The notes beneath the pieces were generated by a model that was not told where the DNA came from, ran no database searches, and worked only from the letters and a program-made list of their open reading frames with translations. A DNA stretch of 64,000 nucleotides from an uncultured Bacteroidia bacterium (lineage in GTDB: Bacteria > Bacteroidota > Bacteroidia > Bacteroidales > UBA932). The stretch lies in NCBI GenBank assembly GCA_902788175.1, contig CADAJF010000003.1, positions 62,001-126,000 on the forward strand. The letters are read 5' to 3'. Both the position numbers and the translations under genes were made by a program. Positions 24,615 through 53,379 of this stretch are shown here, in pieces (position 1 is the first letter of the stretch; each line of letters starts with the position of its first letter).

Positions 24615-27600
24615 ATGGAGAAAGCTAGGAGAATATTCGTGGAGAAGCGCGAGGGTTTTCGCGTAGAGGCTGCCAGCCTCCTGAAGGATTTCAACGAGAA
24701 CCTTTCCCTGAACCTTCGTTCCTTGCGGCTGGTCAACGTGTACGACCTTTTCGGCTTCACGGACAGCCTGTTGGAAAAATGCCGCTACAGCGTTTTCGGG
24801 GAGCGCGTGACAGACCTGGTGACGGACTCCCTCCCGGAAGGGGGCCGATACCTTGCCGTAGAGTACCTGCCGGGCCAGTTTGACCAGCGGGCTTCGTCGG
24901 CCCGGGATTGCGTGCACCTGATAGAGCCGGATGCGCCCATCCGCATCAAAAGCGCGCAGGTGCTGCTTTTTGACCAGGATACCCCGCAGGAGGTCCTCTC
25001 CCGGATAGCCGCCTATTTCATCAACCCGGTAGAGTGCCGGCGCAAGGACCTGACGCTCCTGCAGGAAGACGAAAAAGCCAGCGTGAAGCCCGTGGAGGAC
25101 TTCTCCGGCCTTAGGGAGCTGCCCCGCTCGTCCTACCCTGCCTTCTGCAAGGAAAAGGGCCTGGCCATGAACGCCGACGACCTGGCAGAAGTGGTGGCCT
25201 ATTTCACCGCCGAAGGCCGGGACCCTTCCGGAACGGAACTGCGTATCCTGGACACCTACTGGAGCGACCACTGTCGCCACACCACCTTCACCACGGAGCT
25301 GGAGGAGATTACCGTGGACGAGTCCTTCATGAAGGCAGAGCTGGAGTCCTCCCTGGAGCTCTTTGAGTCCATGCGGCAGGAACTTGGCCGGGGAAACAAG
25401 CCCCGCTGCCTGATGGAACTGGCTACCATCGGCGCCCGTTGGCTCCGCAAGCAGGGCAAGCTGGACAATCTGGAGCAAAGCGAAGAGAACAACGCCTGCA
25501 GCATCTATGTGAATGTGGATGTAGATGGGAAACCGGAGAAATGGCTCCTGCAGTTCAAGAACGAAACCCACAACCATCCTACGGAAATTGAACCCTTCGG
25601 CGGCGCGGCCACTTGCCTGGGCGGCGCCATCCGGGACCCGCTTTCCGGCCGAGCTTACGTTTATCAGGCCATGCGCGTGACGGGTGCCGGGGACATCACG
25701 GCCACGGTTGCCGATACCATCCCGGGCAAACTGCCCCAGCGGATGATTTCCAAAAAGGCGGCCGCCGGCTATTCCAGCTACGGCAACCAGATTGGCCTGG
25801 CTACTACGCACGTGCGGGAAATCTACTCCGAAGGCTATACCGCCAAGCGCATGGAGATTGGCGCAGTGGTGGGAGCCGTCAAGGCCTCTTCCGTACGCCG
25901 GGAAAGCCCTGCCGCGGGGGATGTGATCCTGCTGCTGGGCGGCCGTACAGGCCGCGACGGCATCGGCGGTGCCACGGGCTCCTCCAAGGGACACACGGAA
26001 GCCTCCCTGGAAACCTGCGGCAGCGAAGTCCAGAAGGGCAACGCCCCGGAAGAGCGGCAGCTGCAGCGCCTTTTCCGCCGCCCGGAGGTAACGCGCCTGA
26101 TCAAGAAATCCAACGACTTCGGTGCAGGTGGCGTAAGCGTAGCCATCGGCGAACTGGCCGCCGGCCTGGATATCTACCTGGACCGCGTTCCGGTCAAGTA
26201 TGCCGGCCTCAACGCTACGGAACTGGCCATCAGCGAGTCCCAGGAACGCATGGCGGTGGTGGTGGAAGCACCTGACAAAGAGCGCTTTATGGCACTCTGC
26301 GCCCTGGACAACATAGAAGTCACCCACGTGGCCGATGTCACCGCCAGCGGCCGCATGCGCATGTTCTTCCACGGGGAGAAGGTATGTGACCTTTCCCGCG
26401 CCTTTATCGACAGCGCCGGAGCCCGGCACTTTGCCAAGGCCGCGATAGGCCCCGTCGAGGAGCGGAACCCTTTCCTCCGCCAGCGCAAAGGAGACCTTCA
26501 CGCCGATCTGCTGGCGCTGATGGAAGACCCTAACGTAGCTTCTCAGAAGGGCCTGGTGGAGATGTTCGACTCCACTATTGGCCGCTCCACCGTTCTGATG
26601 CCCTATGGCGGCAAACGCCAGATGACAGAAACGCAGGTTTCGGTGCAGAAACTGCCCGTGGACGGTTACACGGACACGGCCAGCGTAATGGCTTTTGGCT
26701 ACAATCCAGACCTGGCCCTCTGGAGCCCTTGCCACAGCGCCGCTTATGCCGTGGTGGAGGCCTGCACCAAGGTGGCCTGCGCAGGCGCAGACTGGTCCGG
26801 CATGCGTTTTTCGTACCAGGAATACTTCGAGCGCATGAGCGCAGACCCCCATACCTGGGGCAAGCCGCTCAGCGCCCTGCTGGGTACCCTCAAGATGCAG
26901 AAGGAACTGGGCCTTGCCTCTATCGGCGGCAAGGATTCCATGAGCGGCAGCTTCGAGAAACTGAACGTGCCTCCCACGCTGGTGGCATTTGGCGTCACCA
27001 CCGTGGACGCGAAGGAAGTGATATCGCCGGAATTCAAAAAGCCCTGCAACCGGATTTACCTTCTGAAACATACGCCCAAGGCCAATTATATGCCTGATAC
27101 GGAGCAGCTTAAGGAGCACTGGTCCTGGCTGCGGGGGCAGATTGTGTCCGGTAGCGTTGTCTCCGCATGGTCCCTGAGCTTTGGCGGCGTGGCCGAAGGC
27201 CTGGTGAAAATGGCCATGGGTAACGCCCTGGGAGTGGATGTGAGCCTTCCGGATCAGGAACTCTTCCAGCTGGGCTACGGTTCTGCCATCCTGGAAGCCG
27301 CCGGGGAACTCCACCATCCGGATGCCGTCTTGCTGGGAACGGTGACGGAGGCGGGCATAGCCATCAACGGCACCCGCTGGGAGCTCCAGGAACTGGAAAA
27401 GCGCTACGAGGGCCGCTACTACAAGCTCTATCCGCCGCGGGTAGAGATTCCCGGTCAAGCCGGGAATGACGGTCCTGTCATGGCCGACACCGATCGGCCA
27501 TCTTCAGCGGTGACTTATCCCGGTGCGCCGGTGCAGACTCCCGTTGTGTGCCTGCCGGTATTCCCGGGCTCCAACTGCGACTACGACACAGCCAAGGCCT

Positions 27601-28307
27601 TCCGCACCGCCGGTGCCCAGGTCAGGCCCTTCGTCTTCCGGAACCTGACGGGGGCGGATGTGCTCCGCTCGATCGACGCCCTGGCAGAAGAGATAGCCCA
27701 GTGCCATATCCTGGCTTTCTGTGGAGGTTTCTCCTCCGGCGACGAGCCGGATGGCAGCGGCAAGTTCATTGCCAATGTAATAGGAAATGCCACCATCAGC
27801 GCCGCCATCGAGGCCCTGCTGGGCCGCGGCGGCCTCATTCTGGGCATCTGCAACGGCTTCCAGGCCCTGGTCAAAAGCGGCCTGCTGCCTTACGGGAAGC
27901 TGGGCTGCGTAACCCCTGCTTCGCCCACCCTTTTCCGCAACGACATCAATAGGCACATCTCCCTGATGGCCCGTACGGAGGTGGTTTCCACCCACTCTCC
28001 CTGGCTTGCCGGCATGGCTCCCGGGGAGGTGCGCAGCATTGCCTTCAGCCACGGCGAGGGCAAGTTTGTGGTGAGCGAGGAACTGGCCCGCGAGCTCTTT
28101 GCCGCCGGTCAGGTGGCCTTCCGTTACCTGGACAACCCCAACGGCTCCTGCCATGACATCGAGGGCGTCCTGAGCCCCGACGGCCGTATCCTGGGAAAGA
28201 TGGGCCACAGCGAACGCTTCGAGCCTAACCTTTTCAAGAACATCGCAGGGGAGCGCAAGCAATCCATTTTTGAAAACGCAGTCCATTATTTCAGAAAAGA
28301 CCGATGA
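24615..28307 (+). CDS. purL: Phosphoribosylformylglycinamidine synthase, large single-chain form
   Basis: 1230 residues. It makes FGAM from FGAR, glutamine and ATP. The synthetase part (about 1-940) has DTYWSDHCRHTTF near residue 213, NETHNHPTEIEPFGGAAT near 316 and GGKDSMSGSF near 771. The glutaminase part (about 975-1230) has FPGSNCDYD, the nucleophile Cys in LGICNGFQAL, and FSHGEGKF with its His. The N-terminus (RRIFVEKREGF) is of the Clostridia type. A two-hairpin repeat is inserted in frame at residues about 944-962 in the linker. It overlaps purC2 by 4 nt. Confidence 0.95.
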   Translation: MEKARRIFVEKREGFRVEAASLLKDFNENLSLNLRSLRLVNVYDLFGFTDSLLEKCRYSVFGERVTDLVTDSLPEGGRYLAVEYLPGQFDQRASSARDCVHLIEPDAPIRIKSAQVLLFDQDTPQEVLSRIAAYFINPVECRRKDLTLLQEDEKASVKPVEDFSGLRELPRSSYPAFCKEKGLAMNADDLAEVVAYFTAEGRDPSGTELRILDTYWSDHCRHTTFTTELEEITVDESFMKAELESSLELFESMRQELGRGNKPRCLMELATIGARWLRKQGKLDNLEQSEENNACSIYVNVDVDGKPEKWLLQFKNETHNHPTEIEPFGGAATCLGGAIRDPLSGRAYVYQAMRVTGAGDITATVADTIPGKLPQRMISKKAAAGYSSYGNQIGLATTHVREIYSEGYTAKRMEIGAVVGAVKASSVRRESPAAGDVILLLGGRTGRDGIGGATGSSKGHTEASLETCGSEVQKGNAPEERQLQRLFRRPEVTRLIKKSNDFGAGGVSVAIGELAAGLDIYLDRVPVKYAGLNATELAISESQERMAVVVEAPDKERFMALCALDNIEVTHVADVTASGRMRMFFHGEKVCDLSRAFIDSAGARHFAKAAIGPVEERNPFLRQRKGDLHADLLALMEDPNVASQKGLVEMFDSTIGRSTVLMPYGGKRQMTETQVSVQKLPVDGYTDTASVMAFGYNPDLALWSPCHSAAYAVVEACTKVACAGADWSGMRFSYQEYFERMSADPHTWGKPLSALLGTLKMQKELGLASIGGKDSMSGSFEKLNVPPTLVAFGVTTVDAKEVISPEFKKPCNRIYLLKHTPKANYMPDTEQLKEHWSWLRGQIVSGSVVSAWSLSFGGVAEGLVKMAMGNALGVDVSLPDQELFQLGYGSAILEAAGELHHPDAVLLGTVTEAGIAINGTRWELQELEKRYEGRYYKLYPPRVEIPGQAGNDGPVMADTDRPSSAVTYPGAPVQTPVVCLPVFPGSNCDYDTAKAFRTAGAQVRPFVFRNLTGADVLRSIDALAEEIAQCHILAFCGGFSSGDEPDGSGKFIANVIGNATISAAIEALLGRGGLILGICNGFQALVKSGLLPYGKLGCVTPASPTLFRNDINRHISLMARTEVVSTHSPWLAGMAPGEVRSIAFSHGEGKFVVSEELARELFAAGQVAFRYLDNPNGSCHDIEGVLSPDGRILGKMGHSERFEPNLFKNIAGERKQSIFENAVHYFRKDR
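27446..27501 (+). repeat. Two-hairpin palindromic repeat inserted in frame in purL
   Basis: First hairpin: ATTCCCGG (27447-27454) with CCGGGAAT (27460-27467). Second hairpin: ATGGCCGA (27480-27487) with TCGGCCAT (27494-27501). It is translated as IPGQAGNDGPVMADTDRPSS, foreign to PurL. The first hairpin matches the intergenic copy at 34808-34832 in reverse orientation. It lies between the two PurL domains, where an insertion is tolerated. Confidence 0.75.
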
Positions 28308-33482: not shown

Positions 33483-34808
33483 ATGGGCCTTGTATATCCT
33501 CTTCCTTCGATGAAAAGTGCTGCCGGAGGCAAAGAAATTAATCTGGAAAACCTCTTGGGAAAGACCGTCCTGGTTATAGGCGGCGGCGGACGGGAGCATG
33601 CCATAGTGGATGCGCTCAGCCGCAGCCCGCAGGTGGCCAAAATCTATTGTGCCCCGGGCAATGCCGGGATAGGGGAGCAGGCGTTCAACGTCCCCCTCAA
33701 GGATACGGACGTGGAGGGCCTCAAGGCCTTCGCGCTGGAAAACAAGGTGGACCTGACGGTAGTGGGCCCCGAGGCTTCGCTGGCAGCTGGCGTGGTGGAT
33801 GCCTTCCGGGCGGCCGGGCTGGCCATCTTCGGCCATACCCAGGCGGCAACGGCCATCGAGAGTTCCAAGGAGTTTGCCAAGCGCCTGATGGCCAAATACG
33901 GCGTTCCTACGGCCGCCTACCAAAGCTTCTCGGATTATGAGGAGGCGCTCGCTTACGTGGCTGCCCGTCCCTTCCCGGCCGTTCTCAAGTACGATGGACT
34001 GGCCGCCGGCAAGGGGGTCGTCATTGCCCAGGACCTGGACGAGGCCCGCAAAGCCCTGGCGGACATGCTCCTGGACAAGAGCTTCGGCGAAGGCCGCGTA
34101 GTGGTGGAGGATTTTCTCACCGGCCCGGAATTCTCCTTCCTCTGCTTTGTGGACGGGGAAAGGGTGTACCCGATGCCCCTGTCGCAGGACCACAAGCGCG
34201 CCTACGACGGGGACAAAGGCCCCAACACCGGCGGCATGGGCGCCTACACAGGCCTGCCCTTCATTACGGAAGAGGACCGGGAGTTCGCCTTCAGGGAGAT
34301 CCTGTGCAAGACGGCATCGGCCATGGCGGCCGAAGGCCTCCCGCTCTCAGGCGTACTGTACGGCGGCCTGATCAAAACGCCGGACGGCATCAAGGTAATT
34401 GAGTTCAACGCCCGTTTCGGAGACCCGGAGACGGAGGTGGTGCTGCCGCTGCTGCAAAGCGACATCTACGACATCTTTGAAGGCGTGGCTACCGGCCATC
34501 CGGTGGAGGAGCCCCTGTGGTCCGGGGATGTCACCCTGGGCGTTGTACTGGCCTCCAAAGGTTACCCCGGCCACTATGAGAAAGGCTTCGACATAGGCGG
34601 CCTGGACAACGTGGATGCCAAGCTCTACCACATGGGAACGGGCGTTCGGGATGGCCGCTTCTTTACCGCCGGCGGCCGCGTGCTGATGGTAGTGGCCTCC
34701 GGCGGCGATGTCCTCCAGGCCCGGGAAAAGGTCTATCGCGAAATTGCCAAAATAGACTGCGAGAATCTCTATTACAGAAAAGATATAGCACACATTGCCT
34801 TAAAATAG
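33483..34808 (+). CDS. purD: Phosphoribosylamine-glycine ligase
   Basis: 441 residues from the ATG at 33483; the family usually begins at the [13 protein letters not shown] strand, here residue about 29, so an ATG at 33510 or a TTG at 33555 could be the real start. ATP-grasp: [44 protein letters not shown] and [10 protein letters not shown] are all present. It makes GAR from PRA. It uses the PRA that PurF makes, next to a PurF with a damaged glutaminase site. Confidence 0.95.
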
Positions 34809-34832
34809 TCATTCCCGGCCCGGCCGGGAATC
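34808..34832. repeat. Palindromic repeat between purD and folD
   Basis: ATTCCCGGCC (34811-34820) and GGCCGGGAAT (34822-34831) form a near-perfect hairpin. In reverse complement it matches the first hairpin of the purL insertion at 27446-27470 (21 of 25 positions), so both are copies of one dispersed family. Without a T run it is not a standard terminator, but it may stabilise the purD 3' end. Confidence 0.75.
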
Positions 34833-51471: not shown

Positions 51472-53379
51472 TTACTTATGCTTAGGTTTTCGTCCTGCAA
51501 TAATAGAACTTTGTTTTGAACCTTGCAAGCGCTTTTCGTTTTTTTTGGAAGAATTTTTAAAAAAGAAGGATTTTTGTTGCTGTTTACGCTCCGGATTCCG
51601 CTCTGTGAAAACGGGTTTGAGGTCCCGGGGGTCCAGTCCGGAGTAGTACATCACGGAGGAGGTGGTCATGGGGGTGGGGGTGAAATCCTGTACCTGGTCC
51701 ATCCAGATGCCCTTGAGGGCAGGGTGGCCGGCAAGGCGCTCCATGTCCTTCATGGTGCAGCCGGGGTGGGAGGAGATAAAATACGGCACCAGACCCACGT
51801 GGGTGCCAGCTTCGCGGTTGATCCGGTCGAATTCCTTGCGCAGCTTTTCGAAAAGCTTGAAGCTGGGCTTGGCCATTTTCTGCAGCACGTGGTCTTCGGT
51901 GTGCTCCGGGGCTACCTTGAGACGGCCGGAGGTATGATGGAGCACCAGCGTTTCCAGGTAAGGCTTGGAGCTGGGGTCCACAAAGTCGCTTTCCGTGAGA
52001 AAGAGGTCATAGCGGATACCGCTGCCGATGTAGCTGTGCCGGATGCCCTTGGTGCTGTCTATCTTCCGGTACAGTTCCATCAGGCGGGTGTGGTCACAGT
52101 CCAGGTTGGGGCAGCGGACAGGGAAAAGGCAGCTGCGTCGGCGGCATTTGTCGCACAGTTCCGGCCGCTTGCCCTGCATGCCGTACATGTTGGCGGTGGG
52201 GGCGCCCACATCCGAGATATTGCCCGCAAAATCCGGCAGGTTGTTCAGCTCCTTCACTTCTTTGAGGATGGAGGTCTCGCTGCGGCTTTGGATGAACTTA
52301 CCCTGATGCGCCGCGATGGTGCAGAAATTACAGCCCCCGAAGCAGCCCCTGTGCGTGTTCACGCTGAACTTGATCATGTCGTAGGCGGGGATGCGTTTGC
52401 CCTTGTAGCGGGGATGCGGCAGCTTGGTGAACGGCAGGTCCCAGAAGGAGTCCATCTCCTCGGTAGTAGCCGGCGGAAAGGGCGGATTGATCTGTACATA
52501 TCCTTCTCCCACAGGCTCCAGGATGGTATCCGGGTGCATCATGTTGGCGTGCGTCTCTATCCAGTGGAAGTTCTCTGCAAAGGCCCGCTTGCTCCGGCAG
52601 CACTCCTCGTAACTGTGAAGGAGAAGCGTTCCTGCGGGGGTATGCTCTCCGGAATCTCTGGCCACCCTCGGCCGGATAAGAGGGAGGGGCCCATCCGCTG
52701 GATGGGAGGGGTCGCGTAGCGACGATTCCGGAGAGCATACCCCAGCAGGAACCTTACCTTTTACGAAAAAGGCTAACTGCGGAATCTGCTGCATGCGGCG
52801 GCGGGGCCAGCCTTTTTCAATGCCGGTGGTAAGTTCCAGCATGGGACGCTCGCCCATGCCGTAGCAGAGATAATCGGCCCCGGAGGAGACCAGGACGGAG
52901 GGCATCAGGCAGTCTTTCCAGTAGTCGTAGTGCGTGAGGCGGCGAAGGGAAGCCTCGATTCCGCCAATCACTACCGGCACATCCGGGAAGAGTTCTTTCA
53001 GAATCCTTGTATAAACGGTGACCGCGTAATCCGGGCGGGCGCCGGCCTTGCCGTCCGGGGTATAGGCATCGTCGTGCCGGAGCCGCTTGGAGGCGGTGTA
53101 GTGGTTTACCATGGAATCCATGGCCCCGGCATTGAGGCCGAAGTACAGGCGGGGCCTTCCCAGCTTGCGGAAGTCGCGGAGGTCGTCCCGCCAATTGGGC
53201 TGCGGAACCACGGCCACCCGGTAGCCCCATTTCTGGAGCCAGCGGGCAATGACTGCCGTGCCGAAGGAGGGGTGGTCCACAAAGGCATCGCCGCTGAAAA
53301 GGATGATGTCTATATAGTCCCATCCCAGCGCCTGAACCTCCTTGACGGAAGTGGGGAACATGTAAGCCTGCGTTGCCAT
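51472..53379 (-). CDS. YgiQ family radical SAM protein (UPF0313)
   Basis: 635 residues. The radical SAM cluster is RGCFGGCNFCTIAAHQG (CxxxCxxC, about residue 351), with a second Cys cluster CDKCRRRSCLF. The C-terminus has KVAPEHT and DFTPTPMTTSSVMY, hallmarks of YgiQ. The function is unproven. A 125-bp inverted-repeat element sits in frame at residues about 209-251, adding the foreign stretch between FFVK and HSYEEC. Translation stays open through it. A -7 element TATTTTTG on the minus strand (53384-53391) lies right at the start codon. Confidence 0.92.
   Translation of the reverse strand: MATQAYMFPTSVKEVQALGWDYIDIILFSGDAFVDHPSFGTAVIARWLQKWGYRVAVVPQPNWRDDLRDFRKLGRPRLYFGLNAGAMDSMVNHYTASKRLRHDDAYTPDGKAGARPDYAVTVYTRILKELFPDVPVVIGGIEASLRRLTHYDYWKDCLMPSVLVSSGADYLCYGMGERPMLELTTGIEKGWPRRRMQQIPQLAFFVKGKVPAGVCSPESSLRDPSHPADGPLPLIRPRVARDSGEHTPAGTLLLHSYEECCRSKRAFAENFHWIETHANMMHPDTILEPVGEGYVQINPPFPPATTEEMDSFWDLPFTKLPHPRYKGKRIPAYDMIKFSVNTHRGCFGGCNFCTIAAHQGKFIQSRSETSILKEVKELNNLPDFAGNISDVGAPTANMYGMQGKRPELCDKCRRRSCLFPVRCPNLDCDHTRLMELYRKIDSTKGIRHSYIGSGIRYDLFLTESDFVDPSSKPYLETLVLHHTSGRLKVAPEHTEDHVLQKMAKPSFKLFEKLRKEFDRINREAGTHVGLVPYFISSHPGCTMKDMERLAGHPALKGIWMDQVQDFTPTPMTTSSVMYYSGLDPRDLKPVFTERNPERKQQQKSFFFKNSSKKNEKRLQGSKQSSIIAGRKPKHK
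52628..52752. repeat. 125-bp inverted-repeat element in frame within ygiQ
   Basis: A 29-nt left arm (52628-52656) and right arm (52724-52752) match in inverted orientation at 28 of 29 positions. The interior holds three smaller palindromes: GGCC...GGCC, CCCATCC/GGATGGG and GTCGC/GCGAC. It adds about 40 residues (for example RPRVARDSGEHTP) with no stop codon. It resembles the palindromic elements of Rickettsia that insert into genes. No matching copy was seen elsewhere in the window. Confidence 0.85.

Follow-up and report, generated by a model that had tools for sequence, protein, structure and literature searches.

The RPEs of Rickettsia, as described in the available excerpts of two publications, are palindromic elements of about 150 bp that lie in frame within unrelated metabolic genes, each RPE encoding a conserved peptide (PMC10969869; PMC3733652), and one review, in the part available, calls their contribution to protein evolution unexplored (PMC10969869). 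REPs are smaller, dispersed repeats of 20-40 bp, which according to the accessible text of PMC3733652 occupy mostly the co-directional and convergent gaps near gene ends and are sometimes intragenic, with a tRNA pseudouridine synthase gene among their hosts. Moreover, in Bacteroidetes, atypical structures that recur at other sites of the genome have been described beside the genes of TnpAREP subclass 2.6 (RAYT group 5), in the sections available of PMC6006769. In this study, we report the analysis of a window of 64,000 nucleotides from an uncultured Bacteroidia bacterium of the order Bacteroidales, in which the ygiQ gene carries a long inverted repeat, together with a survey of the family to which this repeat belongs. 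To our knowledge, how RPE-like palindromes move and whether they shape proteins are still open questions. We consider it likely that the repeat in ygiQ belongs to a dispersed palindromic family, REP/RPE-like in kind, of one Bacteroidales genus, and that it lies in frame, is translated, and follows a scheme in which cores are exchanged.

The inverted repeat in ygiQ is real. Its outer arms (P1), located on the plus strand at 52628-52656 and 52724-52752, are 29 nt each, 97% complementary and spaced by 67 nt; their sequence is locus-specific, and they pair at 28 of the 29 positions, as had been claimed in the original prediction. No other long inverted repeat of the window came close to it, the remaining six of the seven pairs listed being 71-83% complementary. 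The RNA fold of the plus strand of the 125-nt element reached -86.7 kcal/mol (z = -10.6), which was equalled by none of 200 shuffles, and the other strand gave z = -8.7. All three of the small palindromes predicted between the arms were present as inner hairpins in the computed fold. On the plus strand, these are P2 at 52657-52676 (TCTGGCC pairing with GGCCGGA, loop ACCCTC at 52664-52669), the outer pairs of which covary between copies, P3 at 52690-52706 (CCCATCC and GGATGGG around GCT), which varies in length and sequence among copies, and P4 at 52711-52723 (GTCGC and GCGAC around GTA). The putative pseudoknot partner of the P2-loop bases CCCTC (52665-52669) is GAGGG at 52680-52684, which covaries in other copies. 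Searching Rfam 15 with positions 52500-52880 returned no curated family, and a sub-threshold miRNA hairpin alone.

The host frame, at 51472-53379 on the minus strand, encodes 635 aa, and its product was identified as YgiQ (TIGR03904, 758 bits), a YgiQ family radical SAM protein; in this copy, the strand on which the core folds lies antisense to ygiQ. The frame is open across the whole element, which agrees with the predicted absence of a stop codon. A comparison with empty ygiQ sites had also been proposed, and when it was run the distance between the same anchors was 183 nt in the window versus 81 nt in two element-free relatives (L173 and L174), against which the insert adds approximately 34-36 residues and not the 40 or so first estimated. 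Across the ygiQ regions, the shortest filled one was 162 nt, and 12 of the 18 unfilled ones were 51-60 nt. The predicted position just upstream of the radical SAM domain also required correction: the element lies inside Radical_SAM_N (PF08497, residues 8-339), and some 90 residues separate it from the radical SAM match, which begins at residue 340. A search of solved structures yielded no close YgiQ structure.

A search of the genome and its relatives, likewise proposed beforehand, revealed further copies. The DNA search found six in the own genome (two more rows were arms matching each other), located inside ygiQ, murB, mtaB, the E2 acyltransferase gene and truA, with one intergenic, and 19 of the 61 genomes searched, every one a member of the genus, gave matches, as against none of 24 genomes from other families. 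A covariance model built on 26 copies detected the element in 97 of 121 genus genomes, with as many as 32 copies found in a genome, and in 4 of 198 genomes drawn from the order; these counts are lower bounds, as stricter filters were applied and at most 34 candidates per genome were scored in the genus and 21 in the order. The four order-wide positives were the own genome, G246 (from another genus of the same family), and G298 and G148 (other families); broad sharing by distant lineages, which the original prediction had raised as a counter-argument, was therefore not seen within that limit. The exact-core pattern occurred in at least 119 stretches of the genome collection, and the titles among the matches listed were of Bacteroidales or Bacteroidia assemblies, many of them from ruminant gut by sample name. 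The window element had no matches in phages or plasmids, and its exact core had none in viral contigs. Most elements were 110-167 bp long, as given by the 5th and 95th percentiles over 200 parsed copies. On contigs C18 and C58 of G298 (L240, L245, L247), inverted copy pairs were observed approximately 75 and 33 nt apart, reminiscent of REP doublets.

Placement was determined for 141 parsed exact-core copies. Intragenic copies numbered 64, while 51 lay between co-directional, 12 between convergent and 4 between divergent genes; the rest lay close to an N end (1) or a C end (1), overlapped partly (4) or had a single neighbour (4). These calls were made with a simple gene caller, which replaced a noisy coding-score classification (one frame through the element in 16 of 141), and the counts are approximate because the two differ widely. 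For 15 recurrent host genes, both flanks were searched independently, giving 124 distinct flank-to-flank regions, of which 65 were filled and 59 unfilled, some of the latter containing diverged relatives under the core-score detection used (e.g. L305 and L306). All 124 regions, and hence all 65 filled ones, were divisible by three and stop-free, part of the 65 being selected in this respect as the 15 genes were chosen for at least one copy in an open frame. Family searches with one representative each identified the hosts ygiQ, murB, mtaB, truA, ribF, rsmA, trmB and a YggS-type enzyme, and Pfam, again with one representative each, identified an E2 acyltransferase, an RNB exonuclease, TruB, a PUA/SAM methyltransferase, a THUMP-like protein, an HI0933-like flavoprotein and a glycosyltransferase. 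Eight of these 15 (mtaB, truA, rsmA, trmB, RNB, TruB, PUA/SAM and THUMP-like) have RNA as a known or likely substrate, an observation made post hoc and with no background set. The 65 in-frame, stop-free regions, together with in-frame remnants (see below), argue for translation and against removal at the RNA level, so that the element within genes is apparently translated and the proteins are apparently not broken.

Conservation is strong in the core, which spans about 67 nt and consists of three hairpins and an inferred pseudoknot, in the order P2 (GCC-ACCCTC-GGC plus flanking pairs), TAAGAGGGAGGGG, P3 (CCC...GGG), AGGGG and P4 between the arms. In the 26 copies, 98.2% of pair cells paired, the covariation score was 0.498, with shuffles at 0.141 and slid controls no higher than 0.103, and 13 of 14 arm pairs changed on both sides. 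Covariation was strong in P1, P2 and P3 against both shuffles and slid controls; the number of further pair types in the 26 copies was ordinary (matched by 44 of 500 shuffles), and the fixed core pairs are uninformative because these copies were selected by exact core. The pairing of the P2 loop with the downstream segment was CCCTC/GAGGG in 213 of 237 distinct pattern matches and of another fully Watson-Crick type in 14 (CCCGT/ACGGG in 5, CCCGC/GCGGG in 4, CCCAT/ATGGG in 3, CCCAC/GTGGG in 2), those outside the main type being counted as pattern matches, some of which may not be whole elements. All five pseudoknot pairs were standard in 229 of the 237, two of the positions being informative since the other three are fixed by the search pattern. 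In this count, seven copies whose loop is CCCCC were scored with a register shift of one base, and in five of them (L130, L136, L168, L305 and L307) CCCCC faces GGGGG. This covariation makes a pseudoknot between the P2 loop and GAGGG probable. In addition, one P2 position was most often occupied by a U.G pair, and G.T mismatches exceeded A.C mismatches in 84 ungapped arms (32 versus 13, p = 0.007); the same arms also held 23 A.G mismatches, which are unexplained by simple pairing. The U.G pair and the G.T excess suggest that it is the plus strand of the core that folds, either as RNA or as single-stranded DNA.

The arms vary by locus yet remain complementary, and whereas cores were more alike within a genome, arms were more alike at the same locus. 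Mean identity of arms and variable core, respectively, was 0.50 and 0.79 for copies in the same genome at other loci (218 pairs, mostly from G016 with 78, G014 with 45 and G122 with 21), 0.56 and 0.70 at the same locus in other genomes (86 pairs), and 0.37 and 0.63 where neither was shared (1500 pairs). The copies of G014, G016, G122 and G298 were chosen for look-alike scores, a choice which favours similar cores; without G014, G016 and G122 the same-genome values were 0.45 and 0.74 (76 pairs, 37 genomes), and G016 alone showed a weaker contrast of 0.52 and 0.71 (78 pairs). In individual pairs, L158 and L161 had identical arm ends (24 nt compared) with reversed and different cores, L101 and L152 had arm and core identities of 0.92 and 0.67, and some same-locus pairs, such as most of those in ribF, had unlike arms. 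Against the rule in the genus, several G298 copies have common arms and a small upstream hairpin (L245 does not), and arms can therefore travel with the core. The core ran along the gene in 27 of the 65 filled regions and against it in 38, with both orientations, as seen between species (assemblies), occurring at single sites (5 and 5 in ygiQ, 5 and 5 in mtaB). The contrast between arms and core fits three readings, namely exchange or conversion of the core, formation of the arms at insertion, and faster evolution of the arms.

Remnants of the element were found at the same sites. The murB site is filled in G088 and filled in reverse with similar arms in G093, and in G003, which is near-identical to G088 around the site, just the arm tips GGATAGA-C-TCTATCC are left. 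The mtaB gene of G061 can be read as holding a right arm and part of P4, the truA gene of G019 as arms without the core, and that of G062 as a left arm only; all of the murB, mtaB and truA remnants are in frame. Palindromic scars at unfilled sites showed a weak excess (15 of 40 versus 6.7 expected, part of it native sequence), and because of this weakness only single scars were used as evidence. No insertion in progress was caught, and the one clear polarity, at murB, is a loss. Elsewhere, the same sites are filled in frame by other REPs, for example TGTCATTCTGAGCGAAGCGAAGAATC and CGTCATTCCCGGCTTGACCGGGAATC, and because REP-like repeats of other species occupy them in this way, these protein loops look like general insertion sites. 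Such in-frame REP-like repeats, some recognised by eye, were observed in the truA/mtaB loops of L303, L334, L336, L338-L340 and L329 and in murB of L325.

One such repeat also lies in the window. CGTCATTCCCGGCTTGACCGGGAATC, a REP with the CGTC end known from PMC3733652, is located at 27446-27471 on the minus strand, in frame inside a 1230-aa frame (24615-28307) that we take to be purL. It is probably the purL family from which the original prediction had set the ygiQ element apart, and the two are indeed unlike. A variant of this REP is located at 34807-34832, starting where a frame of 441 aa (33483-34808), presumably purD, ends; the next frame is presumably folD.

Y1 transposases were considered in connection with mobility. 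Y1_Tnp matches were present in 46 of 61 genus genomes, and the element was absent in 10 of the 15 genomes without such a match versus 3 of the 46 with one (p = 7e-6, kinship ignored; G009, one of those three, had one weak match in the DNA search), while the control DDE_Tnp_1 showed no co-occurrence with the element (p = 0.75). Copies were also present without a Y1_Tnp match in G298 (99% complete, 15 copies), G246 (99%, 5), G148 (99%, 1) and G014 (70%, 11). An arrangement in which the element flanks the Y1 gene was rejected, since copies occurred at 2 of 39 Y1 loci (632 nt from the Y1 frame in one, and 106 nt, as a weak 28-bit match, in the other), close to the one or so expected by chance from about 20 copies per 2.2 Mb and the 124 kb searched. 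RAYT-like frames in element loci, detected with a local HMM, followed no pattern (strong in L145, L073 and L057 beyond the training loci, weak in L186 and L054). A perfect stem of at least 10 bp was observed on one or both sides of 24 of 29 Y1 genes, counted with no shuffled control, and the hairpin sequences differed from one Y1 gene to another (e.g. L342, L346, L349 and L363). Elsewhere in the own genome, beyond the window, a gene resembling those of Y1 transposases (PF01797) at G000:C3:37513-37776 (L189) has a long near-perfect hairpin (TTGCAGTACAATCCTCGTT...) downstream.

In the scheme that we favour, the element would pass through a single-stranded form, probably single-stranded DNA during transfer or replication, that would be handled by the repair machinery or by an enzyme that mobilises it. 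The mobiliser might be a Y1 transposase that acts in trans; the data weakly suggest it as the likeliest enzyme that can be named, a lead and not a result. A copy within a gene would survive selection only in a tolerant loop and with an open frame, and would thus be translated into roughly 34-45 extra residues. Over time, the arms would stay complementary, the core may be inverted or swapped for another core of the same genome, and copies may be lost through in-frame deletions that sometimes leave parts of the arms.

Other explanations were weighed against this scheme. That the feature is a chance palindrome or an assembly artefact is practically negligible, as nothing was found in its favour, and given the fold z-score, the six own-genome copies and the presence of copies in many separately deposited assemblies. 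If the element were an RNA intervening sequence, either self-splicing or processed, the mRNA would lose it and its residues would never be in the protein; the conserved core, the probable pseudoknot, the long closing stem and the single apparent folding strand do resemble a functional RNA, and the hosts include genes of important enzymes such as murB. However, splicing would need neither the divisibility by three nor the absence of stops found in all 65 filled regions, the folding strand is often absent from the mRNA as the core may run either way in the gene, the partial remnants are in frame, Rfam offered no more than its sub-threshold miRNA hairpin, and 71 of the 141 copies were called intergenic. 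An RNA-level splice had been named in the original prediction as a possible objection, and judging from these sequence comparisons we regard it as very improbable. Also improbable is an invertible switch, in which a recombinase would flip the core between the arms and so produce two versions of the protein as a within-gene phase variation. Both core orientations at the same sites, as in ygiQ, the reversed cores between the identical arm ends of L158 and L161, and a number of open frames above that of shuffles (2.91 versus 1.98 of 6, 194 copies) would suit such a switch, but the arms of unrelated copies (identity 0.37) contain no fixed recombination site across loci, L158 and L161 differ in P3 too, so that the flip looks like an evolutionary event, and the identified host proteins are mostly housekeeping enzymes.

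It is possible, and we put it forward tentatively, that only the core is mobile and that the arms are an inverted copy of target DNA made at insertion, or small palindromes that existed before. The pairs from G014 (45) and G122 (21), genomes picked for alike copies, have core identities of 0.94 and arm identities of 0.52-0.53, and in the rsmA gene of L130 the outer part of the right arm coincides with the PV codons before LEVGPG, which are mostly common to relatives, and the left arm mirrors those codons. The rsmA overlap is, however, one case, a weak arm consensus extends out to about 25 nt, several G298 copies have common arms, and homogenisation of cores by gene conversion gives the same contrast. 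A bolder reading, which we likewise regard as doubtful but conceivable, is that the core may be an exchangeable single-stranded folding cassette that moves or converts independently of the arms and in either direction, with the arms written by inverted local copying. If this were true, the frames of housekeeping enzymes would be repeatedly rewritten by a folding element readable in both orientations.

That the movement and effects of such palindromes are still open may be because few families show one site in its filled, inverted, decayed and empty forms. In the genus studied here, the same gene sites are found in these states across many species, and both fold and strand are readable from covariation. 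What keeps evolving arms complementary, whether the core moves apart from the arms, and what share of a housekeeping enzyme is derivable from a repeat would thereby become testable.

The likeness to RPEs that had been proposed held as regards in-frame palindromic insertion in genes, the element being palindromic and in frame in many unrelated genes (65 of 65 regions, 15 hosts). In contrast to the one conserved peptide of each RPE, the element at ygiQ alone shows three peptides and at least three frames. The comparison, made with RPEs by description only, misses what is unusual here, namely the locus-specific arms, a core that is conserved and probably contains a pseudoknot, and the occurrence of this core in either orientation per site. 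In other respects the interpretation in the original prediction was unsupported or incomplete: CGTC-ended REPs, in Bacteroidetes and in further phyla, and intragenic REPs are already in print according to the available text of PMC3733652, and the general phenomenon is therefore not new. Like REPs, the element prefers co-directional and convergent gaps (51 and 12 copies versus 4 divergent, among 141). Unlike them, it is larger, has four helices, lacks a universal GTAG/CGTC end, and is free of RAYT-type flanking, with copies at few Y1 loci; GACG (CGTC on the other strand) was present at the P4/arm junction in 130 of 200 copies, and GTAG was seen, by eye, only within some P2 stems. With TnpAREP subclass 2.6, as far as it is described in the sections available of PMC6006769, the element shares the phylum and the association of dispersed structures with a Y1 transposase, and the long non-element hairpins beside Y1 genes of the genus resemble its atypical structures, but the element itself is rarely near Y1 genes. 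As in a MITE, it is short, with terminal inverted repeats and no enzyme of its own; in contrast to a MITE, the terminal repeats are unconserved between unrelated copies. No target duplication was identified among the sites compared, where no dated insertion had a matching empty site and the clear murB pair represents a loss. A literature search, with most subscription journals outside its scope, found no description of the element. Rather than as an RPE, a GTAG/CGTC REP or a MITE, we would file it as a new large REP/RPE-like palindrome with a probably pseudoknotted, invertible core.
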